51,755 bases of DNA from an uncultured Armatimonadota bacterium (GTDB lineage: Bacteria > Armatimonadota > Fimbriimonadia > Fimbriimonadales > Fimbriimonadaceae), in NCBI GenBank assembly GCA_903927025.1, contig CAIYLG010000026.1:1-51755 (forward strand), given 5' to 3'. The translations under genes were made by a program, and so were the position numbers. Of the stretch, positions 31,286 to 49,352 are shown piece after piece (within the stretch, counting starts at the first letter, position 1; each line of letters opens with the position of its first letter). The notes below the pieces were generated by a model that worked only from the letters and a program-made list of their open reading frames with translations, was not told the origin of the DNA and did not search any database.

Positions 31286-31633
31286 TCAGCTCGGCTTGGG
31301 GCCGGTCTCCACCACGATAACGGAGCCGATGCCGCCGCGAACATTGAACTTGCCGGTTACGCGCATCCATCTTGGGCTGCAGGCTGCTGCGAGTTCATCC
31401 AGAAGACGGTTGGTCACCGCCTCGTAGTAGATTCCTTCATTTCGGAACGAGTAGTAATAAAGCTTTAGCGACTTCAGCTCGATGCAAGTCTGGTCCGGGA
31501 TGTACTCCAGGTCGATCGTAGCAAAATCCGGCTGACCCGTCTTCGGGCAGACGCTGGTGAACTCTGGACAAGTGTGCAGAATCGTGAAATCCCGATGCGG
31601 CGCCGGGTTTGGAAAGACTTCTATTTCGTGCAT
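31286..31633 (-). CDS. queF: NADPH-dependent 7-cyano-7-deazaguanine reductase
   Basis: QueF reduces preQ0 to preQ1 in queuosine synthesis for tRNA. The 115-residue protein is the short single-domain type. Visible are the catalytic cysteine in [12 protein letters not shown], and the QueF motif [20 protein letters not shown] (in one 20-residue block) that binds NADPH and preQ0. [11 protein letters not shown] follows near the C terminus. ATG 31633 (MHEIEVF) is used rather than an upstream codon in the same frame. No preQ1 riboswitch was recognised in its leader. Confidence 0.9.
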
Positions 31634-31754
31634 GGAACTCTTAGAGTGTATCTGTTGACTAGGTCTACGAATTCGAGCGGCAAGGCAATTCACGCCGCGT
31701 TCAGCCTCTGAGAACGTCAACTTCGGTCTCCAGGTAAGCGTAAAATCCCATATC

Positions 31755-32522: not shown

Positions 32523-32630
32523 GGCTCCGGCTCAAATATGAGCGAGATCCCTTGAAAAATAATCGGAACATCATTGTCGGCTTTGCGGACTAACCTGCGC
32601 GGCGCATTACTGGGCCAGCAGGAAACTCCT

Positions 32631-32936: not shown

Positions 32937-32944
32937 TGTCACCG

Positions 32945-32962
32945 GAGCCCCGAAAGGGGCTC
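32945..32962 (+). terminator. Hairpin GAGCCCC-GAAA-GGGGCTC
   Basis: A 7-bp perfect stem with a GNRA tetraloop lies just after the lipoprotein stop codon. The downstream sequence is only mildly T-rich (CCTTCT), so it may stop or protect the transcript rather than act as a textbook terminator. Confidence 0.5.
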
Positions 32963-33056
32963 GACCTTCTGCTCGTTAGTTCAGTGCAGCGGGTTCACCT
33001 TCATTGCATCCTCACATTTGGTGGCCATAGTTCTCATACATCCAGGAGAACGAGCC

Positions 33057-33839
33057 ATGAAAAGAATCCGAACCTCAAACCATCCGACCTTACGAGCTAC
33101 GGCTGTGGCCGTCGCATTGGGTCTGTTAGGGATGGCGAGTGCCGACCTCAGGTTTAACGTCAGCGTAACGACCTCCACATCCTATGCCCGACCTGAAGGT
33201 GTACCCTCCTCTGGCAGTTATGAAATTGACTTCCGGGCTGGTCAGGCACGAGTTGTCGAGCCAGATGGAACCGTTCTGCTATTTGACTTTAAGGCTTCCA
33301 AAGTCACCGTGATGAACTCGACCCTGAAGACGTTCTACACCCAATCCCTTGCCGAGACGCTGAAGTCAGACCACCAGGATGCGGCGGCTCCCACACTCGC
33401 CGAAAGCACTAACGCAAACTCGCAGACCTTTTTTGGTGCCAATGCTTACAAGTTTTCGATCCGAAGTAATACCGCATCGTCAGGCGCAACCTTAGGTGCA
33501 TTGGCCGGTGGATCCACCACCACCACGACAAGCAGGCAATTGGCCAATCTTGAAGGGGATGCCTGGCTCGCGGACGGGTCTGAGACTAAAGGGTTCATCG
33601 GCTCAATCGCCCCAATCGTCCTGATCAGCGCACCGTCCTTCCTCGCTTCCTCGCTCACCGACCAACTCAACAGCCTTACCGGCATCCCCGTCTCGATGTC
33701 CCTGGTATGGAGCAACACCGACAAGAGCACGGGCTCAACCGACATGGTCGTCACCGGTGTCGAATCGGTAACCCTAGACGCAGCTCTCTTCGAGACTCCA
33801 TCGCAGTACAAACCCACTCAAAAACCGCGAACGCGATAA
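33057..33839 (+). CDS. Secreted hypothetical protein
   Basis: A signal peptide (RATAVAVALGLLGMASA) precedes about 230 residues with no recognised family. Beta-type sequence opens the mature part (LRFNVSVTTSTSYA, GSYEIDFRAGQARVVEPDGTVLLFDF), followed by a Ser/Thr-rich middle and the C-terminal SMSLVWSNTDKSTGSTDMVVTGVESV. The short DGTVLLFDFKASKVTVMN segment resembles DUF4412-type periplasmic proteins, which is only a weak impression. ATG 33057 has a clear CCAGGAGAA site; the frame's earlier ATG at 33018 lacks one. Confidence 0.65.
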   Translation: MKRIRTSNHPTLRATAVAVALGLLGMASADLRFNVSVTTSTSYARPEGVPSSGSYEIDFRAGQARVVEPDGTVLLFDFKASKVTVMNSTLKTFYTQSLAETLKSDHQDAAAPTLAESTNANSQTFFGANAYKFSIRSNTASSGATLGALAGGSTTTTTSRQLANLEGDAWLADGSETKGFIGSIAPIVLISAPSFLASSLTDQLNSLTGIPVSMSLVWSNTDKSTGSTDMVVTGVESVTLDAALFETPSQYKPTQKPRTR

Positions 33840-33854
33840 AACCGAGTGTCGCGA

Positions 33855-33892
33855 GCTCCCCGGATGGGAGCCAACTGAAGGAGCCAGGCTCC
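33855..33892 (+). other. Competing hairpin arms between two genes
   Basis: GCTCCC (33855-33860) can pair with GGGAGC (33866-33871), while GGAGCC in the same segment can instead pair with GGCTCC (33887-33892). These are mutually exclusive stems. This could be the end of the upstream transcript or a small control element for the gene at 33917. It is based on pairing alone. Confidence 0.3.
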
Positions 33893-33916
33893 AGTAGAAT
33901 CTTGCTGGAAACGGCG

Positions 33917-34492
33917 ATGACATTCGAAGTCTTCAGACACACCCTGCTGACCGGGACATCCGACGAGGATCTCGCCGAAGTTGTGGATTCCTACGGCCAA
34001 GTTCAGGTCTCCGAATGGTTGGTGCTCATCCTGGGGAACTGGCTAGATACCGCAAGACTGCTTTCCCATGCCCAGCAGGACAGGATTCTGTGGAGGATCG
34101 GCTCGAACCCTATGTTCATCGGCTGGTGGCTGGAAGCAGACAGCAAACTCAACTTCGAGCAAAAGACGACATTGCTGCAGGCATCCAAATCCGTCCCCCT
34201 CGCCATCCCAAGTCTATTCAAACCAGACGAACCGATGGAGAACGGATACTTCATGTGGTGGGACCTTCTCTGCTCGGGCATCAGCGATGAGGATCTGGCG
34301 TCGGAATGCCTAGAGATCTTGGAAGCCCTGAGTCAGCACAACGATAACCGGGTGCAGGCCTCTGCCCTTCATGGCCTCGGCCACCTGCAGCATCCGAGGC
34401 GCGCGCAAGTCGTGGACGCCTATATTGCACGCCACCCAGAAGCAGGGAAAAGCGATTGGATACTGGCCTGTCGCGACGGGACCGTGATGTAG
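33917..34492 (+). CDS. Hypothetical helical (HEAT-like) protein
   Basis: The 191-residue protein appears mostly alpha-helical and cytoplasmic. The N-terminal part has TSDEDLAEVVDSYGQVQVSEWLVLILGNWLDTA, and the C-terminal part RVQASALHGLGHLQHPRRAQVVDAYIARHPE, which resembles one HEAT repeat. A TSDEDLA/ISDEDLA phrase occurs twice (about residues 14 and 117), suggesting internal duplication. No family recognised. ATG 33917 is used rather than the earlier in-frame ATG at 33707, which lies inside the upstream gene. A weak GGAAACG site precedes it. Confidence 0.6.
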   Translation: MTFEVFRHTLLTGTSDEDLAEVVDSYGQVQVSEWLVLILGNWLDTARLLSHAQQDRILWRIGSNPMFIGWWLEADSKLNFEQKTTLLQASKSVPLAIPSLFKPDEPMENGYFMWWDLLCSGISDEDLASECLEILEALSQHNDNRVQASALHGLGHLQHPRRAQVVDAYIARHPEAGKSDWILACRDGTVM

Positions 34493-34507
34493 CGTAGCTG
34501 GCAAAGC

Positions 34508-34615
34508 TTGGGCTTCTGCACTAATATTTGAGCCAACGCCCTCGGTCGACGGTGTTCTGTGTCTTCGAATCGAACCCTTGCTGTTTCCACAGTTTTCTCC
34601 CCGGCAGAAGCCTAA
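34508..34615 (+). other. Long-range inverted repeat, possible structured RNA
   Basis: TTGGGCTTCTGC (34508-34519) pairs with GCAGAAGCCTAA (34604-34615) at 11 of 12 positions, and the odd pair is a G-T wobble. Between them lie smaller stems such as CTGT-TTCC-ACAG. The 645-base gap 34493-35137 has no supported gene, so a structured RNA is possible, but no known RNA class was recognised. Confidence 0.3.
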
Positions 34616-34635
34616 TGCAATCCAGTTTTCGGGAG

Positions 34636-34680
34636 GGACTCCTTCTCCTGCCAAACCTGGCGGGAGAGGCGGGATGAGGG
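34636..34680. repeat. Dispersed hairpin repeat, copy 3
   Basis: The core is TCTCCTGCCA-AACC-TGGCGGGAGA (one wobble in ten pairs), followed by GGCGGGATGAGGGTGG. It belongs to the same family as the copies at 204 and 341, and is the inverted partner of the copy at 34850-34900. Confidence 0.55.
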
Positions 34681-34849
34681 TGGAGATGTTAGGCGCGCCC
34701 CTGTCACCTTGCTGAATCTGGAACATGGAGAGGAGCCATTCAAAAATCCGATCTTTTCTGCGATAGCCCGCAACCAGTGTGAGGCAAGGCAGTTCAGGTT
34801 CGAAAGTTGCGGGTTTCCATTCAAATTTTGAGCCAGGGTCGCGCATTTC

Positions 34850-34900
34850 GGAACCACCCTCACCCTTCCCTCTCCCGCCGCTGGCAGGCAAGGGAACCGA
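34850..34900. repeat. Dispersed hairpin repeat, copy 4
   Basis: CCACCCTCACCC is followed by TTCCCTCTCCCGCC, a short loop and GGCAGGCAAGGGAA (34866-34896). Read on the minus strand it aligns with copy 3 through GGCGGGAGAGG and GATGAGGGTGG. The two face each other across about 170 bases. Confidence 0.55.
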
Positions 34901-35137
34901 TCCACGACGCTTGGCCCTGCTCAGTAAATTTCGGTAATCCGTCCGCACAAAGTGGCAAATCTCAAACTGGCTGGCACTAGGCTGAAGCCGATGGTGCCAT
35001 TAGGGGGCGTTAGAATCCGACATTTTATTGATTTCGTTCAGCTTTAGGACTTCTTGCGAAATCCGCAACACCTGTGCGGGTTGCGGGGTCAATCTTTTTT
35101 GAAACGGCAACGAATATCAACGGAGGAACGATATTTT
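34901..35137. other. Leader region without a gene
   Basis: This is the stretch before the Ser/Gly-rich protein. AT content rises after 35010, with TTTATTGATTTCG, TTAGGACTTC and TTTTTTGAAA, and probably includes the promoter and leader of that gene. No clear -35/-10 pair could be chosen. Confidence 0.3.
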
Positions 35138-36502
35138 ATGAAAATTCTAGCGAGGATTACGCTTTTGGCTTCGGCGTCGCTGATCTGTCTTGCGACCGCT
35201 GCAACTGCCAGCGCAGACCGTGTTTACTATCTGGTCGGTGTGCGCCACGTTTATCGAATCGGCCACGACAAGTACTTCCACGCGGATGAGCGGCGACAGA
35301 TTGAGCAGGACTACGCCGATCAGGTCTCCGCTGACAACTCGCATTATCAGTACGCCATCAACCACGGTTCCGACCCTAATGTAGAGGGTCCGCAGCTCGA
35401 CTCCGCCCTTCACGACCTTGCCGCTGAGCGCGAAACCAGACTGGGTTCACTCTATGAGCGTTGCGATTGGGTCCGTGAAAGACACCCTAGCTTCAACATC
35501 ACGGTAGACGGACCCTATCAGGTGATCGGTGTGGGCTACCACGTCTATCAGAACGCAGAGTATTGGGACAACTACGTTGCCTATGCTCCTTGGCCCGGCT
35601 ATGTTTGCGAGGGACCGAACCCTTACGGGTGGAACTATGGCGTGGTTTATGCGCCTGGCCTCTTCGTGAGCTGCTATCACGGCTGGTATGGCGGCTGGGT
35701 TGGTTTTGGAAGCCCCGCATTTGTTGGGTTTTATGGCTACGGCGGCCCCATCGTGTGCGCTGGCCTATCAATTCATATCGGAGGCGGCTTTGGCTTCAGC
35801 TATTACTCCAACCCGGGTCTCGGCGGATATTACCACGCAGGTCCTGGATACTTCGCTCGAGACGCCTTCCGAGGCGGGTATATCGCGGGACGACGCGATG
35901 CCCGGTTTGCGATGGCCAGACGAGCTGGATACGAAGCCGGATTCAACGCGATCCGCTCGGCAAGATCGGCTGGCTATGCCAGCGGCATCCGCGCAGGCGC
36001 TCGATCCACTTTCAGCAGCAGCACTCGCGGCTCCTCGACCAGCTTCGCTCACGGCGTCAACCGAGGCGGCAGCTTCTCTCACACGGCTCCGCCGGTGCGA
36101 ACAGGCAGTTCCTACTCGCACAGCACCACCGGCAACCGCGTAGGAAGCTTCAACCGAAGCGCGAATACGGTTCGTCCGGGCAGTTCCTACTCCCACACGC
36201 AGGTTCGTTCCACGTCCGGCTCAACCTATAACCGGACGGGAAGCTTCAGGCCCAGCACCCCAACCCGCAGCTCTGGATCCTCGTCCCCGAGCCCAAGCAG
36301 GTACGGGCATAGCTCCGGTAGCTTCCGCCCAAGCGGCAGCAGACCGTCGGGCTCCTTTGGTCACAGCTCTCCGGGCAGGAGTTCGGGCAGCTTCGGCCGA
36401 CCCTCGACTCCTGCAAGTCACGGGTCGTTCGGCGGTAGCCGGCCAAGCGGCGGCGGCCGATCCAGCGGTGGCGGCGGCGGCGGACGCAAGCGCGGCGGCT
36501 AG
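35138..36502 (+). CDS. Secreted protein with a long Ser/Gly-rich C-terminal half
   Basis: A signal peptide (ARITLLASASLICLATAATASA) leads into a folded region of about 110 residues (YYLVGVRHVYRIGHDKYFHADERRQIEQDY), then a Tyr/Gly/Trp-rich middle (WPGYVCEGPNPYGWNYG, GWYGGWVGFG). From about residue 290 the sequence is low-complexity: GSYSHS, GSFNRS, GSFRPS and GSFGHS motifs recur roughly every 15-25 residues and the protein ends GGGGGRKRGG. The repeats suggest a flexible or cell-surface segment. The start is fixed by CGGAGGAACG. No function recognised. Confidence 0.7.
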   Translation: MKILARITLLASASLICLATAATASADRVYYLVGVRHVYRIGHDKYFHADERRQIEQDYADQVSADNSHYQYAINHGSDPNVEGPQLDSALHDLAAERETRLGSLYERCDWVRERHPSFNITVDGPYQVIGVGYHVYQNAEYWDNYVAYAPWPGYVCEGPNPYGWNYGVVYAPGLFVSCYHGWYGGWVGFGSPAFVGFYGYGGPIVCAGLSIHIGGGFGFSYYSNPGLGGYYHAGPGYFARDAFRGGYIAGRRDARFAMARRAGYEAGFNAIRSARSAGYASGIRAGARSTFSSSTRGSSTSFAHGVNRGGSFSHTAPPVRTGSSYSHSTTGNRVGSFNRSANTVRPGSSYSHTQVRSTSGSTYNRTGSFRPSTPTRSSGSSSPSPSRYGHSSGSFRPSGSRPSGSFGHSSPGRSSGSFGRPSTPASHGSFGGSRPSGGGRSSGGGGGGRKRGG

Positions 36503-36521
36503 TTCGCCAAGCTTTTTCGCA

Positions 36522-36561
36522 AAATAGCGGCTCAAGATCGTTAGATCTTGGGCCGCTATTT
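36522..36561. terminator. Bidirectional rho-independent terminator
   Basis: AAATAGCGGCTCAAGATC (36522-36539), loop GTTA, and GATCTTGGGCCGCTATTT (36544-36561) form an 18-bp stem with a single wobble. It lies between convergent genes, and the A- and T-rich stem ends suit both strands. Confidence 0.85.
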
Positions 36562-36599
36562 CGCCTTAGGAGCGTCAACTGGAAGCATCCGATACAGCG

Positions 36600-37088
36600 C
36601 TAGTCCGATTGATGAGCGCGGGAATTTATCCCCAGAACATACATCTTCAACGCCTTCTCAGGGTTTGGGCCATCGACTCGGAGGTAGATAATCGGCGCAT
36701 CGGGGTCTATGCCAGCGTATGCAGGCGGCTTTGCTTCGAGCAGTTCTCGAATGATTCGAGATCCCTTGGCATCGCTTGAAAAGACGGGAATCACCCCAAA
36801 CCAGTGTCGCTTTTTGACCTTTGCGGTGCGAATGAAGCGAAACAGGCTTTCACCGGAAGGACTGTCTCCAAGCGGCTCACATAGGCACGCTTCATGACTG
36901 AGCAGGTATTCAGCTCGACGCGCATCGGAACTCTTCGCCGCCAACTTCTTGAGCTGACTATCGATTTTGTCGATGGCAGCCATGCGCTGCTGAGGTGTCA
37001 CGCTAAAGTGAAACGTACCGGGCGGCAAATCCTGTTGGAGGAATGCCACACCTGTGCTCAGGAACATACCAAAGATCGGGATCAACAA
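36600..37088 (-). CDS. Secreted hypothetical protein
   Basis: A short signal (PIFGMFLSTGVAFLQQ) precedes about 145 residues. Visible parts are VTPQQRMAAIDKIDSQLKKLAAKSSD (helical), SHEACLCEPLGDSPSGESLFRFI and RHWFGVIPVFSSDAKGSRIIRELLEAKPPAYAGIDP. The ACLC pair may be redox or metal related. It is not recognised. The start is TTG 37088 with a GGGAG site at 8 bases. Confidence 0.55.
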   Translation of the reverse strand: MLIPIFGMFLSTGVAFLQQDLPPGTFHFSVTPQQRMAAIDKIDSQLKKLAAKSSDARRAEYLLSHEACLCEPLGDSPSGESLFRFIRTAKVKKRHWFGVIPVFSSDAKGSRIIRELLEAKPPAYAGIDPDAPIIYLRVDGPNPEKALKMYVLGINSRAHQSD

Positions 37089-37127
37089 GTTCTACTCCCT
37101 TGATGGATGCAGGAAATTTAAAGGGCT

Positions 37128-37910
37128 CTATTTTGCTGAGGTTGCCATCTTTACCAGTTCCTGAACCTCACCCATACCGAGGGCTCGGTTGTAGATGCGA
37201 AGGTCATTGATGATTCCATTCCAGCCAAAGTTGTAGCGCGAATTTGGAAAGCCGTTGTTGGTGCCGATTCCAACGCCCGCATGCTGACCGTCAACGAGTG
37301 GGACCAGCGGTGTCAGGGTGAACTTGTCACCCGCACTCGCAACCACTTTTCCATCCATATAAAGCTTCTGGCTACCGGTTTTCTTGTCGTAGGTCGCTGT
37401 GATCAAAACAAATTTGCGGAGGGGCATCGGCGCCTGGATTTCGGACAGGTTGTCTCGCTCACCGGTGGTTAAAAACGCCATTTTGCCTTCTGGATTCACC
37501 TGAAGCGCATACGGATCCATTCCGTTTCGGTCGTCGCCGTTAAAAATGATGGAAGACCAAAGCTTGCTGGAGGCGGGATATGACCTCAGGTAGACCCAAG
37601 CGCTTATTGTAAAGGATGCGTCAAATTGAAGGTCCCGGGGGGAGCGGATGTAGATCCCGGTCGTCGCTCCATCCAGATCGATGCCATATCCCATCACCGC
37701 CGGTACATATTCGTACGGGCCCTGGGGAGTGAGATCGATTTCGCCAGCCGAGTCCATGGCGTTGCCGTTGAACTTCCACCAGTGAATCAATCCTTTGGTC
37801 AGCTTCGCCTGATCCAGGGTTGCGCGAGCCATCCCGTTGGGAGTTGCGGCCAGCACAGCGGCGCATAAGAGGCCGACCGCGACCGAGGTAAGAATCTTTG
37901 GATGGGTCAT
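37128..37910 (-). CDS. Secreted LamG/concanavalin-like lectin-fold protein
   Basis: A signal peptide (SVAVGLLCAAVLAATPNGMA) is followed by one LamG-3 domain: LIHWWKFNGNAMDSAG, YGIDLDGATTGIYI, FTISAWVYLRSYPASSKLWSSII in pieces, FVLITATYDKKTGSQKLYMDGKVVA in pieces, and the family ending GIINDLRIYNRALGMGEVQEL. LamG modules bind carbohydrate or protein ligands outside the cell. No catalytic domain is attached. A TATAAT box lies 36 bases upstream. Confidence 0.82.
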   Translation of the reverse strand: MTHPKILTSVAVGLLCAAVLAATPNGMARATLDQAKLTKGLIHWWKFNGNAMDSAGEIDLTPQGPYEYVPAVMGYGIDLDGATTGIYIRSPRDLQFDASFTISAWVYLRSYPASSKLWSSIIFNGDDRNGMDPYALQVNPEGKMAFLTTGERDNLSEIQAPMPLRKFVLITATYDKKTGSQKLYMDGKVVASAGDKFTLTPLVPLVDGQHAGVGIGTNNGFPNSRYNFGWNGIINDLRIYNRALGMGEVQELVKMATSAK

Positions 37911-37946
37911 GGTAATAAATCGATTCGCCTGAGAATTGACGTTTCA

Positions 37947-37952
37947 ATTATA
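37947..37952 (-). promoter_or_regulatory. TATAAT -10 box of the LamG gene
   Basis: A perfect TATAAT on the minus strand lies 36 bases before ATG 37910. No good -35 hexamer was found at 16-18 bases. An ATTGA-CGTT-TCAAT inverted repeat immediately downstream could be a control site. Confidence 0.45.
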
Positions 37953-38068
37953 GGTGGGTTTTGGCAAATAGCCGAAGATCGTGAGAGTCTTGTCACGTCG
38001 TCCATGCAGGACAAGTTGGCACTAAGTGTCCTATTGCCATAAGATGAAGTGTTGCGAGGCGAACGGAG

Positions 38069-39250
38069 ATGCAGGCGGAAGTCCAATTTACTGAATCAGT
38101 TGTAGCGAAGTCGGCAAATGCACCTCGGTTTGGTCTTCTCTTTCTGAGCCTTGTATGCCTTGCCTTGGGATTCTATGCCTACTTCGGTATCGCGCAACTG
38201 GTGCCACTTGAGATCCGATGGCTGGTGGCGTGGGGAACTGGGCTTGCGGCTTCCTTCTTGACAGTCGTGAGATTTCGAAGAAATGACAGAATCCTCGCTT
38301 CACTGGCACTTGCCTGTTCAATGGCAGGATGCTGGATGCCAATCGCAAGATTCTATGACGTAAACCACACGTACCCATGGGTGATGGTTGGGACACTTGC
38401 AATCACGATGATCGCTGGCGGTCTGATGTGCCGCCTGCGCGTGATTCCGATTCTGGCAACGCTGTTTCTGCTCTCCTGGTTTGGTGGCACCGTCTTGCCG
38501 CCTCAGGCCCACTACCCGGTGGTGAAAGAGGCAGATGGGATTCGCTGTACGCTGAAGTCTCCGCAGGAGATCGACTTTCAAGCCGTGGATTGCAGCGATA
38601 TCTCACTTCAGATCGACGAAAATAACGTGCAGTCAAATGCTTCCATCGGACCATTGATCCAAACCGACAACTTGCTCCGAAGGAGGTTCACGCTTGAAAA
38701 CGCGATGATTCACGGCAGAGACAGGTCTTTTGTTGCGCTAAACCCACAGGTGGAGAAGCCGGTTTGGTCCCGGTCAGTTCGCCTGCAATTCGATGTGCAG
38801 CGGTGGCCCAAAGTGCCGGCATGTGAAGTCACAATTCCTTTAAAATCCACCCTTGACGATTCTTTTCAAGCAAGCCAAGGCGAGTTTGATCTCTCAGCTA
38901 ACCAGGTGCGTTGGACTTCTTCTGCTCACACCGAGTTTCAAGTGAACCTATTCTACAACCGCATCAAACGGCAGACTGGAGCGGACGCAAGAGCGAGCAT
39001 GTACGACCCGACTCCCTACCTGCTGACAGGTAAGGAGTACCGAATCATTGATGATCGGGGAATGAAGGTCGAACCACAGAGGATTGCCGATGGTGTTGAT
39101 CCGATCGACGGTGCCTATCGAAGCGGAGTCTCTCCGCTCCTGCGCATTGGCTTTTGGTCTCGAATGCCAAAGTGGATCAAGATTCAAGTTTTCAACCCAG
39201 ATGATCTGGGCAAGAACCGAACCACGTTTGACTTTGGTCGATTGCCATAG
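38069..39250 (+). CDS. Membrane protein with a C-terminal soluble domain, unknown function
   Basis: Five membrane helices fill the first 150 residues (FGLLFLSLVCLALGFYAYF, WLVAWGTGLAASFLTVV, LASLALACSMAGCWMPIA, MVGTLAITMIAGGLMC, VIPILATLFLLSWFGGTVL). A soluble domain of about 240 residues follows, with no recognised motif. Orientation rules would place it outside the membrane if the N terminus is inside. A GAGG sequence about 12 bases upstream may act as ribosome site. It is a single gene with its own start. Confidence 0.65.
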   Translation: MQAEVQFTESVVAKSANAPRFGLLFLSLVCLALGFYAYFGIAQLVPLEIRWLVAWGTGLAASFLTVVRFRRNDRILASLALACSMAGCWMPIARFYDVNHTYPWVMVGTLAITMIAGGLMCRLRVIPILATLFLLSWFGGTVLPPQAHYPVVKEADGIRCTLKSPQEIDFQAVDCSDISLQIDENNVQSNASIGPLIQTDNLLRRRFTLENAMIHGRDRSFVALNPQVEKPVWSRSVRLQFDVQRWPKVPACEVTIPLKSTLDDSFQASQGEFDLSANQVRWTSSAHTEFQVNLFYNRIKRQTGADARASMYDPTPYLLTGKEYRIIDDRGMKVEPQRIADGVDPIDGAYRSGVSPLLRIGFWSRMPKWIKIQVFNPDDLGKNRTTFDFGRLP

Positions 39251-39300
39251 GTGGGTGCAGAAGCCGCTTCCGGACGCCCACCCGAATCAATCGCTTGGCC

Positions 39301-39879
39301 CTACTTTGTTGTCGCAACCGTGACGGAGATCTTGTTGGAGGTGCCGTCTTTGCTGACCATCAAAGTCTCTGCCTTCTTTCCAGATTTCCAAGTCGCCATC
39401 GCCATGGTGTCGGTGGTCATGGACGACGCTGGCTTACCCAGCTTTCCGGTATAGAAATCGACCACCTTGGCGGCGGCATCGGTCGTCACACGGTTGGACA
39501 TCACCGTGGTTCCCTTGTCCGTAGCGCTCTTCAGGCTGTCTTTGCTTTCCGTGCTTCCAGGATAAAACGGCAATCCCAAGTCCGCCTCGGAAACGCCGGT
39601 ACCCATCTCAAGGGTGTTGCCCTGGCTGTCGTGCGCCTTCACCGTGCCGTTATCGGCAACATACTCCGAAGCGCCATTGCTGGACTTGATGGTCATCTTC
39701 TTGCCATCACCCGAAACGGTGGCCGTGTTTCCTTGGGAATCAGTCGTCTCGATCTTTGCACCTGGTTCGACCGTCACCTTGGTTCCGTCGCTGGCGGTCA
39801 CCGTGTGGCTGCAGCCAAACAATGCGAGAGGCGCTAAGAGAAATCCAAGGCGGGCGGAAGTTGCTACTTTGCTAAACAT
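39301..39879 (-). CDS. Lipoprotein, hypothetical
   Basis: The signal peptide ends in the lipobox LALFGC. The mature part starts with about five short repeats of a DGTKVTVEPG / DSQGNTATVSG / DGKKMTIKSS / DNGTVKAHDSQGNTLEM type, a beta-rich strip. A second domain begins GLPFYPGST and continues VVDFYTGKLGKP and ATWKSGKKAETLMVSKD, resembling small periplasmic proteins of unknown function. A good TTGTTA-17-CATAAT promoter lies upstream and a GAGG ribosome site precedes the ATG. Confidence 0.72.
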   Translation of the reverse strand: MFSKVATSARLGFLLAPLALFGCSHTVTASDGTKVTVEPGAKIETTDSQGNTATVSGDGKKMTIKSSNGASEYVADNGTVKAHDSQGNTLEMGTGVSEADLGLPFYPGSTESKDSLKSATDKGTTVMSNRVTTDAAAKVVDFYTGKLGKPASSMTTDTMAMATWKSGKKAETLMVSKDGTSNKISVTVATTK

Positions 39880-39890
39880 GACTTGTCCTC

Positions 39891-39919
39891 ATTATGCAAT
39901 GGTCATGCAAAGTTAACAA
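39891..39919 (-). promoter_or_regulatory. Sigma-70-type promoter of the lipoprotein gene
   Basis: On the minus strand, TTGTTA (39919-39914), a 17-base spacer and CATAAT (39896-39891) make a near-consensus promoter. It overlaps the last codons of the flavin oxidoreductase gene, so the lipoprotein is transcribed on its own. Confidence 0.6.
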
Positions 39920-40922
39920 GGCTTTGGCCCGCCCAACACTCGGCGAGCAGTTCGAGCGACTTCAACCTGGCATCCAAGTCGAAAATCCGCGCCGTGACCA
40001 TGATTTCGTCCGCTCGGGTCTGCTCGGCAAATTCCTCAAGATCAGCGCGAACACTCTTAGGACTGCCGACAAAGGAACAGCTGAGGAACCCATCCACAAA
40101 CTCATGCTCCTCGGGAGTCCAATGGGCATCGACATCAACAATCGGCGGCTGCATCTTGCCACGCTTGCCTTTCCCCAGGTTCCAGACCCCGATTCGCGCC
40201 GAGGAGAACAGGTTGTAAGCCTCTTCATCCGTTTCCGCAACCACGACGTTGGCGGCTGCCATCGCATGGGGCTTCGGCCACTCAGCCGAAGGTCGATATT
40301 CGCGTCGATAGATATCAAGGGCACGATACAACAGCTCGGGTGCAAAGTGCGAGGCAAAGGCAAACGGGAGGCCCAAGTGAGCCGCAAGCTGGGCGCTGTA
40401 CAGGCTGGAGCCAAGCAGCCAAATTGGCACATGCAGACCGACACCGGGCACCGCTTGGACCGCCTGGTTCGGCACCGCATCTCCGAAGTACATCTGGAGC
40501 TCCTGCACGTCCTGGGGGAACGTATCCATTGGTCCCGCATCGAGGTTGCGGCGAAGGGCGCGAGCCGTCAATCGGTCCGTGCCTGGAGCACGACCCAGCC
40601 CCAAATCAATTCGGCCAGGGTAAAGCGCCTCCAGCGTTCCGAATTGCTCGGCAATCACGAGTGGAGAGTGGTTCGGCAACATAATTCCGCCTGCTCCAAC
40701 CCGAATCGACTCCGTACCACCCGCAATAAAGGCGAGCGCAACCGAAGTCGCCGCACTCGCGATTCCCTCCATGTTGTGGTGCTCCGCCATCCAAAAGCGC
40801 TTAAAACCCAACCGCTCCGCCTGACGAGCCAAAGTTAAGCTGTCCAACAGCGCCTCACGGGGAGATTCGCCCTCCCGCACAAAGGAGAGGTCGAGAACGG
40901 AGAGCGGGATATTGGTAGGCAT
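39903..40922 (-). CDS. Luciferase-like (LLM class) flavin-dependent oxidoreductase
   Basis: A TIM-barrel flavin monooxygenase of the bacterial luciferase family (the MsnO8/YhbW-type group). Features are [36 protein letters not shown] near the start, [41 protein letters not shown] at about residues 75-115, and [15 protein letters not shown]. Such enzymes use reduced flavin and oxygen; the true substrate is rarely known. Length is 339 residues. An AAGG site lies seven bases before the ATG. Confidence 0.88.
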
Positions 40923-41280
40923 CGCTACCTTGACTCTACGTAGTCAGCAACCTCAGCCTCTTACCGTGAGGCTTGCCTCCAACCCAATCCCCCTCCCTCG
41001 GAGGGGTGGACAGCTCGACTTACACCCCATGTACCCAGAATACGGTTCAAGATGCAGCCAGGTTTAGCGAACTGGCCGCCAAGGCGCTCAGCCTTGATAT
41101 CTGCCGTTCCGAGAATACGAGAGCTGCCTATACGCCTCTTTCCGAGTGTTATCCAGCCTCGGATGACGTCGGATGACCCCCTGAGCGTGCCGGACCGCAT
41201 CCTGCTTCTGGCCAAGCGCATCGAGATCCTGCGAGAGGGCGATGCGGTTGGAATCGTCAGCCGGACTTCTTTTATCATGA
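40923..41280. other. Intergenic region with no supported gene
   Basis: Overlapping frames on both strands are open here, but none has protein-like composition throughout. A short G/C hairpin (CCCCTCC-CTC-GGAGGGG) lies near 40990, and the direct repeat GGATGAC occurs twice around 41160. It may be a decayed gene or spacer. Confidence 0.35.
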
Positions 41281-41625
41281 TCAGGCAGGTTTTGATTTCT
41301 TCCGCGTAGCCGCATTCGGGAGCTCGTAAGGCAACTTTCTGACCAGGTTGATTGATTCAGTGAAGTTCTGCCGAGATGAATCAAACGTATTCCAACCTGC
41401 ATAACCGCCAAGAATGAGATACCCGAGCGGGTTCCGGAAGGTATCCGACCCCTGCTTGTCGCGGAGTCGCCCGAACGCCAAAGACTGATTGAACGCGTGT
41501 TTGAACCTTCTGAAATGAACATCAGCGGGGTTGAAACCCATGTCTAAAAGCGGGCTAAATTGCCCGCGCGCCCATTGGTCCGTCTTATCCAAAAGACATC
41601 CAAACCTCAAGAAATAGAAATCCAT
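41281..41625 (-). CDS. Possible small hypothetical protein
   Basis: The 114-residue reading frame has protein-like composition: MDFYFLRFGCLLDKTD, then PADVHFRRFKHAFNQSLAFGRLRDKQ and NPLGYLILGGYAGWNTFD, ending in KKSKPA. No family recognised. It starts at ATG 41625 (a TTG 15 bases further upstream is also possible) with no clear ribosome site. It could be a real gene or a chance frame. Confidence 0.4.
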   Translation of the reverse strand: MDFYFLRFGCLLDKTDQWARGQFSPLLDMGFNPADVHFRRFKHAFNQSLAFGRLRDKQGSDTFRNPLGYLILGGYAGWNTFDSSRQNFTESINLVRKLPYELPNAATRKKSKPA

Positions 41626-41688
41626 CTTGCTAAAGCACAAATAGATGCGCTGATGCGGATTTACTGAAACAATCCTCGAAACGAATTC

Positions 41689-43314
41689 TCACTCCAATAC
41701 GACGGTATACGTTGCCGCTTCTGCCACGCTGAGGCCGAAGAGGAGGCGTTGGCTGGGGGTGACTGTGTTCTTATCGTTGACGGAGGACACCTTGGCCAGG
41801 AATCCCATGCCGCGAAGGTCGCCTGAAACGAGGAAGTCTACGATTCGGCCGTAGAAAGCAAGCGACGCGGAGCCGAAAAACGGGGCCTGAACAACGGCGT
41901 TGGAGAACAGTTGGCGCTGGTTTGCATCCATGTTGGTCACATTGATGCCATCTGCCATTGCGGTAGGAATCTCCCGGCCCCTTAGCGTCGAATAGAATTG
42001 AAGGGCTGGCATGGAGCGCTCGAAGAGCTGGGTCGGAAACTGAGCGAGAACCTCTTCCTTCAACTCCAAAACCCGGGCTTGGGGCGGGGTCAGCTTGGCG
42101 ACGAACGAGGCGTAGTCCGCAATGCTCAACTCGGACTTCTCCGATTTTTTCTCCAGCGGCTGAAAGGCGGATTCTGGCGTCTCAAACTTTCTCAACCGCC
42201 AAAATCCACCATGACGGGACATCACAATGCCGTCGTCGAAACGAGTGAAAACGTGACATTCCTGCTTCATTTGGGCCAGCCAATTAATGTAGGAAGAACC
42301 TAAACGGGTGGGGGCTCGACCAGGGGCGGGGACGCGAAATGCATCCGCAATGATCGGCACTCCGGTTGCATCAAACGCCATCTCGTAAAGGTCCGAGATC
42401 GAAACGCGCTTGCTGTAGTAGGGAGATACGGCTGTGGCGGGGACCGTCAGAACATTCTCCCAACCACCCCCAGTCGGCACCGGCTGGTCCCAGGCGAGAA
42501 CGGCTTTTCCAAAAGGCATTGCCGCCAATTTGCTGTTTGGAGTGGGATCTGCCACCACTTCGGTTGGCCGCTTGCCAAACGTTCTAGCCGCCCCACGAAA
42601 GGTGTATCGCACCTGATACAGCAAAGGATCGACCTGCATGAAGATTGGAATCGCGGCCCGAGATACGGGAGCGCGCCTTCCTCCCCGAGTCGGGGCGGAA
42701 GGGTCAACGGGCACCGCCGTGATCGCGTTCATGCTGGGGTCCCTTGCCGCGACCACATCTCCGCGCCAAAACGCCGAAGCCTGCTGATTTCCCAGTGAGC
42801 CGATCACCTGCCCAAGCACGGCGGCATTGATTTTGGCCATACGGGGAGCGCCTGCACCCGCTTTGGGTGCTTCTTCGGGACCGTTTGCATCCACCAGCTT
42901 CTTCACCTCGTCCGAGAGCTCCTGGAGCGCGATCTCATCCTCTTTTGCCACAAACTTCTCTCGGTCATGCGTGGCTTCAAGCGTCATGTGCAGCCGCCAC
43001 AGATCGCCGTCATGCACCCACTCGCAACCCAGGACGGACGCGATCTTTTCCAGCACAAGGCCGGCTGGAATCTTCTTAACGAGCACTGTTACCTTTAGGT
43101 CGTTGATCGGCTCGACGCTGGCGAGCTTGACCCCTGTAAGCTTCGATATCTCCTTGAGCGCATCTGGAAGCTGGGCGACTTTGAGCTTGATTGAAATCGG
43201 TTTGCCTAAGCTGGTGTCATGGGCGATATCCGCCGACTGGGCACAGGCCCATCCGGAAAGGCACGCCAAGAGGAGAGGAAGCGCGACTCGGCGAAGCAGG
43301 TTGGATGGGGTCAT
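41689..43314 (-). CDS. Secreted STN-domain protein, paralogue B
   Basis: A signal peptide (VALPLLLACLSGWACAQS) is followed by an STN-like (secretin/TonB short N-terminal) domain: ISIKLKVAQLPDALKEISKLTGVKLASVEPINDLKVTVLV, in pieces, ending GCEWVHDGDLWRL. A helical linker and a large unrecognised domain follow. The latter includes GVPIIADAFRVPAPG, NWLAQMKQECHVFTRFDDGIVMSRHGGFWRLRKFETPESAF in pieces. The upstream neighbour has the same layout, so the two are diverged duplicates. STN domains occur in secretins and TonB receptors, but no secretin barrel is present here. Function unknown. Confidence 0.7.
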   Translation of the reverse strand: MTPSNLLRRVALPLLLACLSGWACAQSADIAHDTSLGKPISIKLKVAQLPDALKEISKLTGVKLASVEPINDLKVTVLVKKIPAGLVLEKIASVLGCEWVHDGDLWRLHMTLEATHDREKFVAKEDEIALQELSDEVKKLVDANGPEEAPKAGAGAPRMAKINAAVLGQVIGSLGNQQASAFWRGDVVAARDPSMNAITAVPVDPSAPTRGGRRAPVSRAAIPIFMQVDPLLYQVRYTFRGAARTFGKRPTEVVADPTPNSKLAAMPFGKAVLAWDQPVPTGGGWENVLTVPATAVSPYYSKRVSISDLYEMAFDATGVPIIADAFRVPAPGRAPTRLGSSYINWLAQMKQECHVFTRFDDGIVMSRHGGFWRLRKFETPESAFQPLEKKSEKSELSIADYASFVAKLTPPQARVLELKEEVLAQFPTQLFERSMPALQFYSTLRGREIPTAMADGINVTNMDANQRQLFSNAVVQAPFFGSASLAFYGRIVDFLVSGDLRGMGFLAKVSSVNDKNTVTPSQRLLFGLSVAEAATYTVVLE

Positions 43315-43416
43315 GGTTATCGGACGCCTAGAACGCCCCTCAGTTACTCAAAGGCCTATCATTTTGGCGCGTGGGCAGGGCCTCTCCAGCCGCTTTTGGC
43401 ACTGCAGATGCGACCG

Positions 43417-45315
43417 TCAGTGCCCACCTTTGTCTGGAATGACTACTTCAGCGATGACTCCATCGACATCGCTCACGGCGGAGAAGAACTTAAAGGTTCC
43501 ATACAGCCTTCGTGGCGAAGCTTGTGCCGCTACAATGTCCATCTGATTCACGTCACGGAACGAAAAGAAGTGGGCGTGGTAGAGCGTGACCGGGTCGAAG
43601 GCATTGACAAACTGCGTCGAATAATCCGGACTGTCAGACCACAGGTATCGGTAGGCAGATGGCATCACTCCTGCCTCCAGGAGCTTCGACTCAATTCCGA
43701 CTGGGATTCCACCATAGAACACCCCCCACGCACCAGAAGAGTTTATGAAAAAGTCGGTTCCTTGCCGTCTACCGGTCGTGGCCATTTCATCAAGAATGAT
43801 CTTCAACCCGGTCTTTGGAGATTTCTGGAAGGTGACATTGTGAGTGACGCGTAAATCGTCTTGGATATCTCGATACCAGTTGACGAATCCACCCGACAGC
43901 AGGTGAAGGCGCTGCTCGTTCGTGAGCTCCCCGAATGCCGCCAGTGCAACTGGATTCGTTTGGAACGGCTTTGAATCAAAGAGGGTCAAGGGCACTTCTT
44001 GAGACTCGAAGAAAGGCATGAGATAGGTGCGGTCGGTGTTTCCCCACCAGCCCTGTTCAAACGCAAAATCTGCGTATTCATCCAGCCCTGGGCGGGGGAT
44101 CGCCTCGAAGCGCCTCAGTGCTTCTTCGGGAATTTCGAGCGTCCTCAGGTCCCAGAAGCCACCGTGTCGGATGCAGACGCTTCCGTTCTGAACGTGGACG
44201 AAGCTGCCCTGTCGGGTTCTCAGGGACTCAAGCCAATGTCTGAGATCCGCTCCCTTAACCGGTTCCTTACCAATAACGGGCATGCGAAACGCATCCGACA
44301 CCACCGGAATCTTGAGTGCATCGGCGAGTGCTTCAAGATAATCCTCGATGCCCTGCCCGCCACCATGGAATGGTGGAGGCTGTAGGGCTAGGCCTGTGAT
44401 CTGTTTGTCCAGGATCGGATCATCAGAGTCGTCGAGCGGCGTTTCCCATTCCATAAGCCACTTGCCGGGAGACGTCTTGGCGAGATACCCAACTGGCTTC
44501 GGATATCGAATCAAATGCTTCGGGCGATTGTCAGGACGACTTCCAGCACCCACCACCACCGATTGGAGAGATCCGGCCCAAGGGGCGGGGCGAGCAAGGA
44601 TCTGGGCGCCTTCGAGCCCCGCGCCTGCGTCTCCAGCAGCGCTGCACTGGAGCGATTCCGCTATTTTCTCCGTAGGAGGCACAATCAATCGGTAGGCAAT
44701 TTGGTAGTAGGTGTTGGCAAATCCACCAAAACAATCAAATTTCCGGGTCCATTCCTCAGCCGCTCTCGTGCGGGCAAACATGAGCCCAGCCACGAAATAC
44801 GCAGGATCGTGAATCTTTGCCTCAGCCCACTGCTCAGGCGTTGCGTCATCCGATATGTTGGAAAGCGAAGAATCGGAGCCTTTCGCCAATTCCGACCAGC
44901 TATGCTTAGAGACGGCTTCGGCCAGAGCTCGCGCACGGTCCTTTATATCGGCGATGAGGACCTGACGCTCGGAATTCTCATAGACGGGCAGAAGGAGCTT
45001 GGATTCGGAGGACTCAACCAAGCGCCATTCCGACCCGAGATCCTTCCACTGGCCGCCAACAACCTCGGCGACATTCTTCATGATCAGCCCAAGGGGCTGA
45101 TGTTCGGCAAACACGCAGACCATCAGCGGTTTCAGCGTGTCTTCCATGATGAAGAGCTGATTTGAATGGACCTTCAGGTAGCGAAGAAGGTCAGGCAAGA
45201 GCACCCGCTTGAGGTGAACGTCAATCGGCTGTTGGAGGCGCGGGTCTTTTGAGACATCAGGCGTCGCCTGATGCCAACCCATTGCAGCCAAACAAGCAAC
45301 CGTCGCTAGAACCAC
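43417..45315 (-). CDS. Secreted STN-domain protein, paralogue A
   Basis: The 632-residue protein starts with a short signal (VLATVACLAAMGWHQATP), then an STN-like domain (IDVHLKRVLLPDLLRYLKVHSNQLFIMEDTLKPLMVCVF, in pieces, ending GGQWKDLGSEWRL). A shared block also occurs in its neighbour: IPVVSDAFRMPVIG, HWLESLRTRQGSFVHVQNGSVCIRHGGFWDLRTLEIPEEAL in pieces. It is about 90 residues longer than paralogue B. The start is GTG with a perfect TATAAT box six bases upstream, and no ribosome site. No known family was recognised outside STN. Confidence 0.7.
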   Translation of the reverse strand: MVLATVACLAAMGWHQATPDVSKDPRLQQPIDVHLKRVLLPDLLRYLKVHSNQLFIMEDTLKPLMVCVFAEHQPLGLIMKNVAEVVGGQWKDLGSEWRLVESSESKLLLPVYENSERQVLIADIKDRARALAEAVSKHSWSELAKGSDSSLSNISDDATPEQWAEAKIHDPAYFVAGLMFARTRAAEEWTRKFDCFGGFANTYYQIAYRLIVPPTEKIAESLQCSAAGDAGAGLEGAQILARPAPWAGSLQSVVVGAGSRPDNRPKHLIRYPKPVGYLAKTSPGKWLMEWETPLDDSDDPILDKQITGLALQPPPFHGGGQGIEDYLEALADALKIPVVSDAFRMPVIGKEPVKGADLRHWLESLRTRQGSFVHVQNGSVCIRHGGFWDLRTLEIPEEALRRFEAIPRPGLDEYADFAFEQGWWGNTDRTYLMPFFESQEVPLTLFDSKPFQTNPVALAAFGELTNEQRLHLLSGGFVNWYRDIQDDLRVTHNVTFQKSPKTGLKIILDEMATTGRRQGTDFFINSSGAWGVFYGGIPVGIESKLLEAGVMPSAYRYLWSDSPDYSTQFVNAFDPVTLYHAHFFSFRDVNQMDIVAAQASPRRLYGTFKFFSAVSDVDGVIAEVVIPDKGGH

Positions 45316-45444: not shown

Positions 45445-45465
45445 GTAGCAGGGTGGCCCTACTAC
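45445..45465. terminator. Hairpin at the end of lpdA
   Basis: GTAGCAGGG-TGG-CCCTACTAC forms a 9-bp stem with one A-C mismatch and includes the lpdA stop codon. No T run follows on the minus strand, so it may act with rho or as a 3' protection hairpin. Confidence 0.35.
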
Positions 45466-46877
45466 TTGTGAATCGCGTGGCCCTGGGCGTCTTCAAACGC
45501 TTCAAGAACCGCTTCAGACATCGTCGGGTGAGCGTGGATGCAGTCCACCATGTAGTCCAGAGTGGCTTCGAGCTTCAGCGCGACAACCGCTTCATGGATC
45601 ATGTCGGTGACGTGGGCGCCGATCATGTGGACGCCGAGAACCTCGCCGTACTTTCGATCGCACACAACCTTCACAAAGCCATCCTGCTCCGTCGTGGCCA
45701 TTGCCTTGCCAAGCGGGCGGAAGTTGAACTTGCCAACCTGCACGTCGTATCCCTTCGCCTCAGCCTCGCTCTGGGTAAGACCCACGCTGGAAACTTCAGG
45801 GGACGTGTAGACGGCGTTCGGTACTGCCTTGTAGTCCATCTTCTTTTCAGAGCCGGTTACCGCATTGGTAGCGGCGCAGATGCCTTCCGCAGAAGCAACA
45901 TGGGCGAGCTGAATTCGACCGGTGACGTCGCCGATGGCGTAGATGTTCGGCACGTGAGTCTTCATCGTGTCGTCCAGCAGGCTAACGCCGCGTCGATGAA
46001 GCTGAACGCCGATCTTCTCGAGGTTCATGCCTTCCGTATTGGCCTTGCGTCCGACGCCAAGCAGAACAACATCGACTTCGATAACTTCGACGTCGGTGCC
46101 CTTCTTGATGGTGACCTTCCAGCCCTCGCCACTTCGCTCACACTTTTCGATGGTTGCGCCGGTTCGAACTTTGATTCCCTGTCGGCTGAGGAGCTTGCCC
46201 AGTTCCACGCCGAGGTCGACATCCATCATCGGCAGTAGCTGAGGCATCATCTCGACGAGAGTGACGTCCGAGCCGAGCCCGTTGAAGACGTAGCCAAATT
46301 CGCAGCCGACGGCTCCGCCGCCGAGAATGACGATTCGCTTTGGAACATACGGCATGTTGACCGCTTCGTCGGACGTCCAAACGTTGTTTTCCTTACCGCC
46401 TTCCAGACCTGGAACGGGGATGTGGATCACGCTGGAACCCATCGCGAGGATAATGTTCTTGGCCTTGATCTTTTCGACCTTGCCGTCCTTCTCCACGTTG
46501 AGGGTGTGCGCGTCGACAAAGCTTGCGAAGCCTTCTACGTGGCGAATTCCGTTCTTTTTGAACAGCATGCCCACGCCGCCGCGCTGGGTCTGAACGATTT
46601 TGTCCTTGCGGGCGATCATTGCGTCGAAGTCGACGGTGGCCTCACCGGACACCTTCACGCCGAGCTTATCGGCATGCTTCACGCTCTGAAGTCGCTCAAC
46701 GGTGGCGATCAGGGCCTTGCTGGGGATGCATCCCCAGTTGAGACACGTACCGCCGAGATATTCCTTCTCGACAACGACTACCTTAGCGCCCAGCTGCGCC
46801 GCACGAATCGCCGCAACATATCCTCCCGGACCCGCGCCGATCACTACGAGGTCTGCGTCGAAGTTCTCATTTGCCAT
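45462..46877 (-). CDS. lpdA: Dihydrolipoyl dehydrogenase
   Basis: E3 subunit shared by 2-oxoacid dehydrogenases and the glycine cleavage system; it reoxidises dihydrolipoamide with NAD. FAD binds at VVIGAGPGGYVAAIRAAQLG. The redox-active cysteines are in GGTCLNWGCIPSKAL, NAD binds at ILGGGAVGCEFGYVFNGLG, the second FAD motif is IYAIGDVTG, and the dimer-interface base is HAHPTMSEA. With ATG 46877 it has the usual 471 residues and a CAGGAG site 12 bases upstream. A longer frame starts at ATG 47000 and adds 41 residues without lipoyl or binding-domain motifs, so the shorter form is preferred. Confidence 0.93.
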   Translation of the reverse strand: MANENFDADLVVIGAGPGGYVAAIRAAQLGAKVVVVEKEYLGGTCLNWGCIPSKALIATVERLQSVKHADKLGVKVSGEATVDFDAMIARKDKIVQTQRGGVGMLFKKNGIRHVEGFASFVDAHTLNVEKDGKVEKIKAKNIILAMGSSVIHIPVPGLEGGKENNVWTSDEAVNMPYVPKRIVILGGGAVGCEFGYVFNGLGSDVTLVEMMPQLLPMMDVDLGVELGKLLSRQGIKVRTGATIEKCERSGEGWKVTIKKGTDVEVIEVDVVLLGVGRKANTEGMNLEKIGVQLHRRGVSLLDDTMKTHVPNIYAIGDVTGRIQLAHVASAEGICAATNAVTGSEKKMDYKAVPNAVYTSPEVSSVGLTQSEAEAKGYDVQVGKFNFRPLGKAMATTEQDGFVKVVCDRKYGEVLGVHMIGAHVTDMIHEAVVALKLEATLDYMVDCIHAHPTMSEAVLEAFEDAQGHAIHK

Positions 46878-47011
46878 TAACTGTTCTTGCTCCTGCAGGA
46901 CGGGGATGTTCGCAATATCTCGAATAAGGGATTCAATCGGCGCGGCAACGGTTGCAGGACCGTTCGTTGGATGGATTGATGGAGATTCGTGACTGCTCAT
47001 TAAGCGTCCTA

Positions 47012-47927: not shown

Positions 47928-49352
47928 GTGACGTCTGCCGACTTTCTTCACCTGCTCGACCAATGCCCCCTGATCGCCTCCGTGCAGGCAACCGATGGAT
48001 CGGCGACAGATGATCCCCAAACACTTAGCCAGTTGGCTCAGGCGAGCGCAGCTCAAGGCGTCAAAATCCTTCGCCTCCAGGGCATTGAGAACATCAAGGC
48101 GATCCGCGCCGATTTGGATTTGCCGATTATCGGACTGATCAAGAAGACCTATTCAGACAGTTCGGTCTATATCACACCCACATCGGCTGAGGTCACGGCG
48201 TTAACTGACGTCGGATGTGAAATCATCGCCATAGACGGCACTAGTCGCCCGCGACCTGGTGGAGAAAAGCTCTCAGACTTGATCGCTCTGGCGCACCAGC
48301 ACGGAGTGCTGGTGCTGGCTGACATCGACACTTTAGAGAGTGCACAGCAAGCCATCATGGCTGGAGCAGATTTCATCAGCACGACACTCTCCGGTTACAC
48401 CTCAGAGTCGCCAAGCATGACGGGACCCGATCTGGAACTGCTTCGAAAAGTCGTTCAAGCGGTGGATGTGCCCATGCTTGCGGAAGGTCGCTTTGCCGAG
48501 CCTTGGGAGGTTCAGGCAGCGATATGCATTGGAGCGAAAGCCGTGGTCATGGGCGGCGCGCTGAACGACCCAGTGAAGACCACCCGGCGGTTCACCCCTT
48601 CGCAACGGCCATCAGGAAAGGTCGGGGCTGTCGACATCGGGGGCACATGGATGCGCTTTGCGACGTTTTCTTCCGATTGGAAGCTGGAATCCATTGAGAG
48701 AATGCCACTGCTCGAAGGTCGCCAAGAGCGTATCGACTGGGTGAGGCGTATGGTCGCCGAAACTGGAGTCTCGGCGGTAGGAGTGAGCACAGGCGGAATC
48801 GTGGATCCAAAGACGGGAGAAGTGTGGGAAGCGAAGGCGCTGATTCCTGACCACATTGGCACCGTTTTCTCGGAAGACACCATTGGGGTGCCAACGCGGG
48901 CCCTGAATGATGGACTTGCCACGTCCTGGGGCCATGCGTGCCTCCCACAATACGCCGGCAAACGAGTGGCAACCCTGGCACTGGGAACCGGCGTGGGATG
49001 TGGCTTTGTGGCGGAAGGCAACCTGATGATGGGCCCACGCGGCGAGTACCCTCGCCTCAACGACCTGCCCGCACCCGGAGGCGCTACGTTTGAACAGCTC
49101 ATGGGAGGAGCCGCTTTGAGCCCCACCCCTGCACCGGAGCAGATCAAGAGTGCCCTGACCGCCTTCTTCCAAGCAGGTATCACGCTCCAAGAGATGTACT
49201 TCCCCGACCAGATCGTGGTTTGCGGAGCGGTTGGGCTGAGCGACTGGATGTCCCCTTACCTTCAATCCCCAGGCCTAAGCGGCTCCCCGTTAGGCTTCGA
49301 CGCCGGCCTCTACGGAGCCGCCGCGCTAGTTCTTTTCCCGCCTACGGCGTAG
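47928..49352 (+). CDS. NanE-ROK kinase fusion: ManNAc-6-P epimerase and ROK sugar kinase
   Basis: Residues 1 to about 228 are an N-acylmannosamine-6-phosphate 2-epimerase TIM barrel: LIASVQ, PIIGLIKKTYSDSSVYITPT (catalytic lysine region), GCEIIAIDGTSRPRPGGE, and VPMLAEGRFAEPWEV. Residues 234-474 are a ROK-type sugar kinase: VGAVDIGGTWMRFA (phosphate loop), GVSTGGIVD, RALNDGLATSWGH (catalytic aspartate) and ALGTGVGCGFVAEG. The ROK zinc motif (CxCGxxGC) is absent; that place reads RGEYPRLNDLPAPGGATFEQLMGG. Together the halves could phosphorylate ManNAc and convert it to GlcNAc-6-P. There is no sialic acid transporter, NanA or NagA nearby. GTG start. Confidence 0.85.
   Translation: MTSADFLHLLDQCPLIASVQATDGSATDDPQTLSQLAQASAAQGVKILRLQGIENIKAIRADLDLPIIGLIKKTYSDSSVYITPTSAEVTALTDVGCEIIAIDGTSRPRPGGEKLSDLIALAHQHGVLVLADIDTLESAQQAIMAGADFISTTLSGYTSESPSMTGPDLELLRKVVQAVDVPMLAEGRFAEPWEVQAAICIGAKAVVMGGALNDPVKTTRRFTPSQRPSGKVGAVDIGGTWMRFATFSSDWKLESIERMPLLEGRQERIDWVRRMVAETGVSAVGVSTGGIVDPKTGEVWEAKALIPDHIGTVFSEDTIGVPTRALNDGLATSWGHACLPQYAGKRVATLALGTGVGCGFVAEGNLMMGPRGEYPRLNDLPAPGGATFEQLMGGAALSPTPAPEQIKSALTAFFQAGITLQEMYFPDQIVVCGAVGLSDWMSPYLQSPGLSGSPLGFDAGLYGAAALVLFPPTA

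Follow-up and report, generated by a model that had tools for sequence, protein, structure and literature searches.

What does an STN domain do in a large protein that has no barrel? Such domains are familiar chiefly from pores, receptors and the anti-sigma partners of these, in which they form the docking end. Two genes in our window (the whole analysed stretch, 51,755 nucleotides of a contig from an uncultured Fimbriimonadaceae bacterium) were predicted from the sequence to encode adjacent, secreted STN-domain paralogues of 632 and 541 residues, here called P632 and P541. Genes were called with an in-house codon-score caller, and both reading frames were found as predicted, next to each other on the minus strand, behind an lpdA-like gene and separated by 102 bases (Table 1). 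A phmmer search of the ORF set aligned them over two homologous stretches (E 1e-30; residues 16–145 and 238–393 of P541), consistent with their description as tandem paralogues. They are distant ones, about 23% identical overall.

Table 1. Features of the P632/P541 locus, in window coordinates.
Feature	Position	Strand	Residues	Basis or remark
lpdA-like dihydrolipoyl dehydrogenase	45462..47000	-		Pfam; conserved upstream neighbour, same position in 6 relatives; locus marker only
P632, apparently exported protein with two STN-like domains	43417..45315	-	632 aa	GTG start
P632 signal-peptide-like N-terminus	45265..45315	-	1-17	short, without charged start
P632 STN domain 1	45010..45231	-	29-102	AlphaFold2 model; VIA-align to 6ovk
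P632 STN-like domain 2, degenerate	44164..44355	-	321-384	model; same alignment columns as P541
P632 RHGGFW motif	44152..44169	-	383-388 of 632	end of STN-like domain 2
P541, apparently exported protein with two STN-like domains	41689..43314	-	541 aa	ATG start
P541 signal-peptide-like N-terminus	43240..43314	-	1-25 (...GWACA, then QS)	sequence; hydrophobic core flagged
P541 STN domain 1	42979..43203	-	38-112	AlphaFold2 model; VIA-align to 6ovk
P541 STN-like domain 2, degenerate	42208..42405	-	304-369	profile-profile comparison with domain 1
P541 RHGGFW motif	42199..42216	-	367-372 of 541	end of STN-like domain 2
queF	31286..31720	-		usual downstream neighbour in relatives; here about 10 kb from P541

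Is the N-terminal domain an STN domain? Neither protein reached the Pfam STN family (PF07660) at E <= 1, and a longer paralogue from the same genome matched it below threshold (E 0.003). AlphaFold2 models, built from alignments of 12 sequences each, reached pLDDT 81 and pTM 0.79 for P541 (22% of residues below pLDDT 70) and pLDDT 76 and pTM 0.81 for P632 (35% of residues below 70). Both models contain an N-terminal domain of about 75 residues in the order beta-alpha-beta-beta-alpha-beta-beta (in P541, strand 39–48, helix 49–60, strands 63–66 and 74–83, helix 84–95, strands 98–102 and 105–109). The best VIA-align match of either model was the PupR STN domain 6ovk (P541: Z 6.2, rmsd 1.6, 73 aligned; P632: Z 6.9, rmsd 1.7, 73 aligned); a Z below 8 is weak taken alone, and the match lists are nonetheless dominated by a single fold. 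The first 20 Foldseek rows of P541 were all of N0/STN type (probability 0.93–1.00, E 0.008 to 0.29), and those of P632 ranged from E 0.1 to 1.8 with spurious rows interspersed. The structural matches were mostly N0/STN domains, from PilQ, EscC, InvG, MxiD, XcpQ, GspD, FpvA, PupR and the FecR-like entries 4m0h and 4m0n; phage-baseplate proteins also appeared among the VIA rows (Z 4–5.8). The top Foldseek row of P632, 1pn4 (enoyl-CoA hydratase 2, E 0.11, probability 0.08), was dismissed as spurious at an rmsd of 19. The modelled fold and its structural matches bear out the predicted N-terminal STN-like domain in both proteins, and on the models we assign this domain to the STN/N0 fold. As the original prediction had it, no barrel follows the STN-like domains in either model; in Pfam at E <= 1, neither protein matched a plug or Secretin domain.

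Does the pair belong to a named family? Sequence searches against Pfam, NCBIfam and the PDB name neither protein, and no known-family match displaced the view that their type is unnamed. A Pfam Fe_bilin_red match to P632 (E 0.1) was discarded as chance, the family profile retrieved nothing from the PDB by sequence, and the STN domain retrieved ribosomal S10 only (E 1.3), again a chance match. PADLOC gave no match in a search for defence systems, and literature searches found nothing on P541, P632 or their family. The genome itself holds about ten family loci, the copy-number survey proposed along with the original prediction. A search with P541 recovered a copy on contig C63 (59% identical), a 640-aa member on C56 and, on C12, C17 and C35, members of greater length. 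The profile of the longer members added weaker matches on C52, C53 and C14 (E 1e-24, 2e-8 and 2e-6). The C63 copy (G000 C63:1737-3071, L039), the nearest to P541, has two internal stops and matches residues 1–446 only; it appears to be a decaying paralogue.

Across genomes we distinguished a short class (32 members, 533–664 aa plus one of 714) and a long class (40 members, 660–835 aa). The two align collinearly in hhalign (464 columns, probability 99.9, E 3e-32) and have a common layout of signal-like N-terminus, STN domain, second STN-like domain and helical region. The short-class profile matched 74 of the 85 genomes of the taxonomic family at E <= 1e-6, many of them in the STN domain only. 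Among the matches listed, E values below 1e-30 came from 14 of 20 genus members (this genome included) and from 1 genome outside the genus, suggesting that hardly any of the short class lies outside a single genus; in a further genus, one frame (G070, L108) matched both domains more weakly. The long-class profile matched 167 of 291 genomes of the phylum at E <= 1e-8, including 81 of the 85 of the family and, among those listed, 28 genomes of the order's other families; beyond the order its best E was 6e-23. Up to 15 candidates per genome were scored for the short class and up to 3 for the long class, so that copy numbers are lower bounds. Tandem arrangement is common: of the 72 members for which an upstream neighbour was called, 24 are directly preceded by a further member in the same orientation. 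One locus (L122, G058 C23:1-16000) carries an unbroken same-strand array of seven long-class genes, and another (L112, G048) a tandem array of five. In a tree with 8 of 29 inner branches open and some long rows meeting, the orthologues of P632 and those of P541 fall into two distinct clades, both with full support, which suggests that the pair predates these species.

What, then, is the conserved block around RHGGFW? The original prediction had placed a shared block, RHGGFWxLRxxExPExA, at the C-terminus. Both proteins do carry RHGGFW, in mid-protein rather than at the C-terminus, and in the models it closes a degenerate STN-like domain, the second in each protein, with the order helix-strand-helix-strand-strand (P541: helix 306–317, strand 321–324, helix 342–353, strands 355–360 and 363–368; P632: helix 323–334, strand 338–342, helix 358–369, strands 372–376 and 379–383). 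A domain 1 profile built from 32 sequences scored 30.2 against domain 2. Shuffling the columns 100 times gave a mean of 9.1 (SD 1.6, maximum 13.7), and the reversed profile scored 9.8. When windows were slid along the protein, the domain 1 profile stood out only where they overlapped the domain 2 region. The long class gave the same answer more weakly, its own domains 1 and 2 aligning at 45% probability. Because the domain 1 profile scores far above the shuffles, we read the RHGGFW block as the close of a second STN-like domain. Around this domain in P541 lie near-invariant polar residues (D324, R327, R367, H368, E378 and E381), and beyond it both models are mostly helical. Past residue 370–390 or so, VIA-align returned only rows at Z 2.1–3.1, in parts that the tool flags as thinly covered. 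The family appears to be lineage-specific and without an existing name, made up of exported STN proteins that carry a further STN-like domain.

Where would such proteins act? Signal peptides were judged by an in-house hydrophobicity rule. The N-termini of P541 and P632 both resemble signal peptides, consistent with the prediction that they are secreted. The start codon of P632 is uncertain because its signal stretch is short and lacks a charged start, with an in-frame stop about 10 codons upstream. Signal-like N-termini occur in 27 of 32 short-class and 32 of 40 long-class members, against 1 of 32 and 1 of 40 for a control window. No TM-like stretch follows residue 70 in any of the 72 family members (32 short and 40 long), and a lipobox-like motif occurs in 1 of the 32 short-class members and in neither P541 nor P632. 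Both proteins are apparently exported and soluble. We infer Sec export; the location is probably periplasmic, since TM-like segments after residue 70 and, in this pair, a lipobox are missing.

Does the position of the genes hint at their function? Relatives carry lpdA, then one to three family genes, then queF, and queF directly follows the last family gene in all 8 relatives where it was seen (gaps of -53 to 86). Beyond queF, the closest relatives have a short receiver-domain-like ORF without a Pfam match and scoA/scoB-like CoA-transferase genes. In this genome, the roughly 10 kb between P541 and queF looks like an insertion or rearrangement; positions 31755-41688 of the window hold a LamG-domain protein, a luciferase-like monooxygenase and several ORFs without Pfam matches, and one ORF of the stretch (35054-36502) is Ser/Gly-rich. 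Elsewhere in the window, a single ORF at 47928-49352 joins a NanE-like epimerase with a ROK-family kinase domain. We rejected lpdA and queF as partner genes: they are housekeeping genes, present whether one, two or three family genes intervene. Because the neighbours are housekeeping genes, the position gives no functional hint. Identities to two relatives (G014/G012) are 46/39% for P632 and 41/38% for P541, against 90/85% for LpdA, 87/79% for QueF, 88/85% for ScoA and 87/84% for ScoB; the receiver-like ORF is 56–65% identical in relatives. P632 and P541 thus seem to diverge fast at a fixed locus among mostly slow neighbours. At the lpdA-queF locus of three genomes (L046, L047 and L048), a cupin/GPI-like gene (about 170 aa) sits between family genes.

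A scan of 68 of 94 listed neighbours (the other 26 were mostly orthologous lpdA, queF and cupin repeats, with several very long, short or doubtful ORFs) found no conserved partner gene of the family. In three genomes (L108, L125 and L126) STN-family genes lie directly downstream of an Amidase_2-Golvesin_C peptidoglycan amidase gene, an adjacency that makes a cell-wall link possible.

Could P541 and P632 instead serve a secretin? As accessory proteins of a T2SS or type IV pilus, they would dock their free STN domain on the N0 ring or on an inner-membrane partner. The nearest folds are indeed secretin N0 domains: those of PilQ, GspD/XcpQ, EscC, InvG and MxiD share the fold of P541 residues 33–114 with an rmsd of about 2 Å over 70–80 residues. 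Secretins of relatives also show profile-level homology to the family, and the long-class profile matches the N-terminal STN of a true secretin (G046 C49, E 2e-9), whose Secretin domain lies within the same 541-aa frame. A genome-wide PF00263 search found seven secretin ORFs; P541 and P632 were not among them, having in place of the Secretin barrel the degenerate STN-like domain and the helical part. However, none of the seven secretins lies within 20 kb of any of the about ten family loci (the nearest is 21 kb away, on C52). Genome G064, at 100% completeness, lacks any family match at E <= 0.01 but carries four secretins; in G027, three secretins go with a single weak match. We therefore regard a secretin accessory role as unlikely.

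Alternatively, the STN domain could contact an anti-sigma factor or a receptor and so control an ECF sigma factor. According to PMC7186176, the STN subdomain of PupR and its neighbour jointly bind the transducer's own STN domain. As noted, PupR was the top VIA match of both models, and the PupR/FecR-type regulators (6ovk, 4m0h, 4m0n) resemble P541 and P632 in carrying an STN domain in a barrel-less protein. In PupR, however, the anti-sigma domain comes first, followed by a TM helix and, at the C-terminus, the STN domain; P541 and P632 have their STN domain N-terminally and lack the anti-sigma domain and a second TM segment. The TonB-dependent transducers (FpvA, PupA and FecA signalling domains) likewise have an N-terminal periplasmic STN domain after a signal peptide, but continue into a plug and barrel that our pair lacks. 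The best lead for a signalling role is a gene order in L109, L111 and L120, in which a membrane protein (DUF2142 or PMT_2) precedes a long-class STN gene with an ECF sigma gene directly downstream. Against this, ECF sigma genes account for only 3 of the 68 neighbours scanned, all in this one kind of order, all beside the long class, and none at the P541/P632 locus. Moreover, no TonB Plug domain scored over the cut-off anywhere in the genome, the two FecR-domain ORFs that it has are on contigs carrying no family member, and neither P541 nor P632 has a FecR Pfam match. Cell-surface signalling of this type is, in our judgement, quite improbable.

Both results bear on the earlier suggestion that the proteins may partner a secretion or signalling system not yet described, which now has little positive support: in this genome no secretin lies within 20 kb of a family locus, a close relative keeps four secretins without the family, no conserved partner gene was found, and the short class sits between housekeeping lpdA and queF.

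A free-standing N0 fold without a barrel has precedents in DotD (Legionella) and VirB7 (Xanthomonas). Both of these are lipoproteins, with solved chains of 102 and 120 residues, whereas P541 and P632 run to 541–632 aa and lack a lipobox.

Might the STN-like domains be mere scaffolds? P541 and P632 could then be exported ligand-binding, matrix or enzymatic proteins, and tandem expansion would reflect environmental adaptation. Fast divergence, tandem arrays, the broken C63 copy and the narrow spread of the short class all fit, as does the polar cluster around domain 2, which can just as well be read as a catalytic site or one for a ligand. The observations would be equally compatible with an exported protein that is an enzyme, binds a ligand or sits at the surface. 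On the other hand, no enzyme or binding-domain family was matched, and no known fold emerged outside the STN-like region, in parts that VIA-align covers thinly. We consider the scaffold explanation somewhat unlikely.

Our preferred, tentative reading is that P541 and P632 are Sec-exported, soluble periplasmic protein-docking adaptors; their family, with its two STN-like domains, spans the order and evolves fast. The proteins would leave the cytoplasm by the Sec route and remain soluble in the periplasm, where the STN domain would bind an envelope partner in the manner known from TonB transducers, secretins and PupR/FecR, and each paralogue would owe a client of its own to its diverging middle and C-terminal parts. 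The STN domains of secretins and of cell-surface signalling proteins bind other proteins, which makes docking the most economical role; docking and client specificity are what we infer here.

A bolder proposal, for which we see only a slim chance, is that the Fimbriimonadales envelope has a modular layer for docking or signalling, made up of this exported, barrel-less twin-STN family and working independently of both secretins and TonB receptors, in which client specificity diversifies among paralogues at fixed loci; besides pores and transducers, the STN fold would then have a third major use. The Fimbriimonadales, members of a poorly studied phylum, appear to have multiplied pore-less STN proteins with a second STN-like domain. 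If these proteins do dock on envelope machines, this would be a reuse of the STN fold; at the least, a block of unannotated, apparently exported proteins in Fimbriimonas and its relatives is accounted for.
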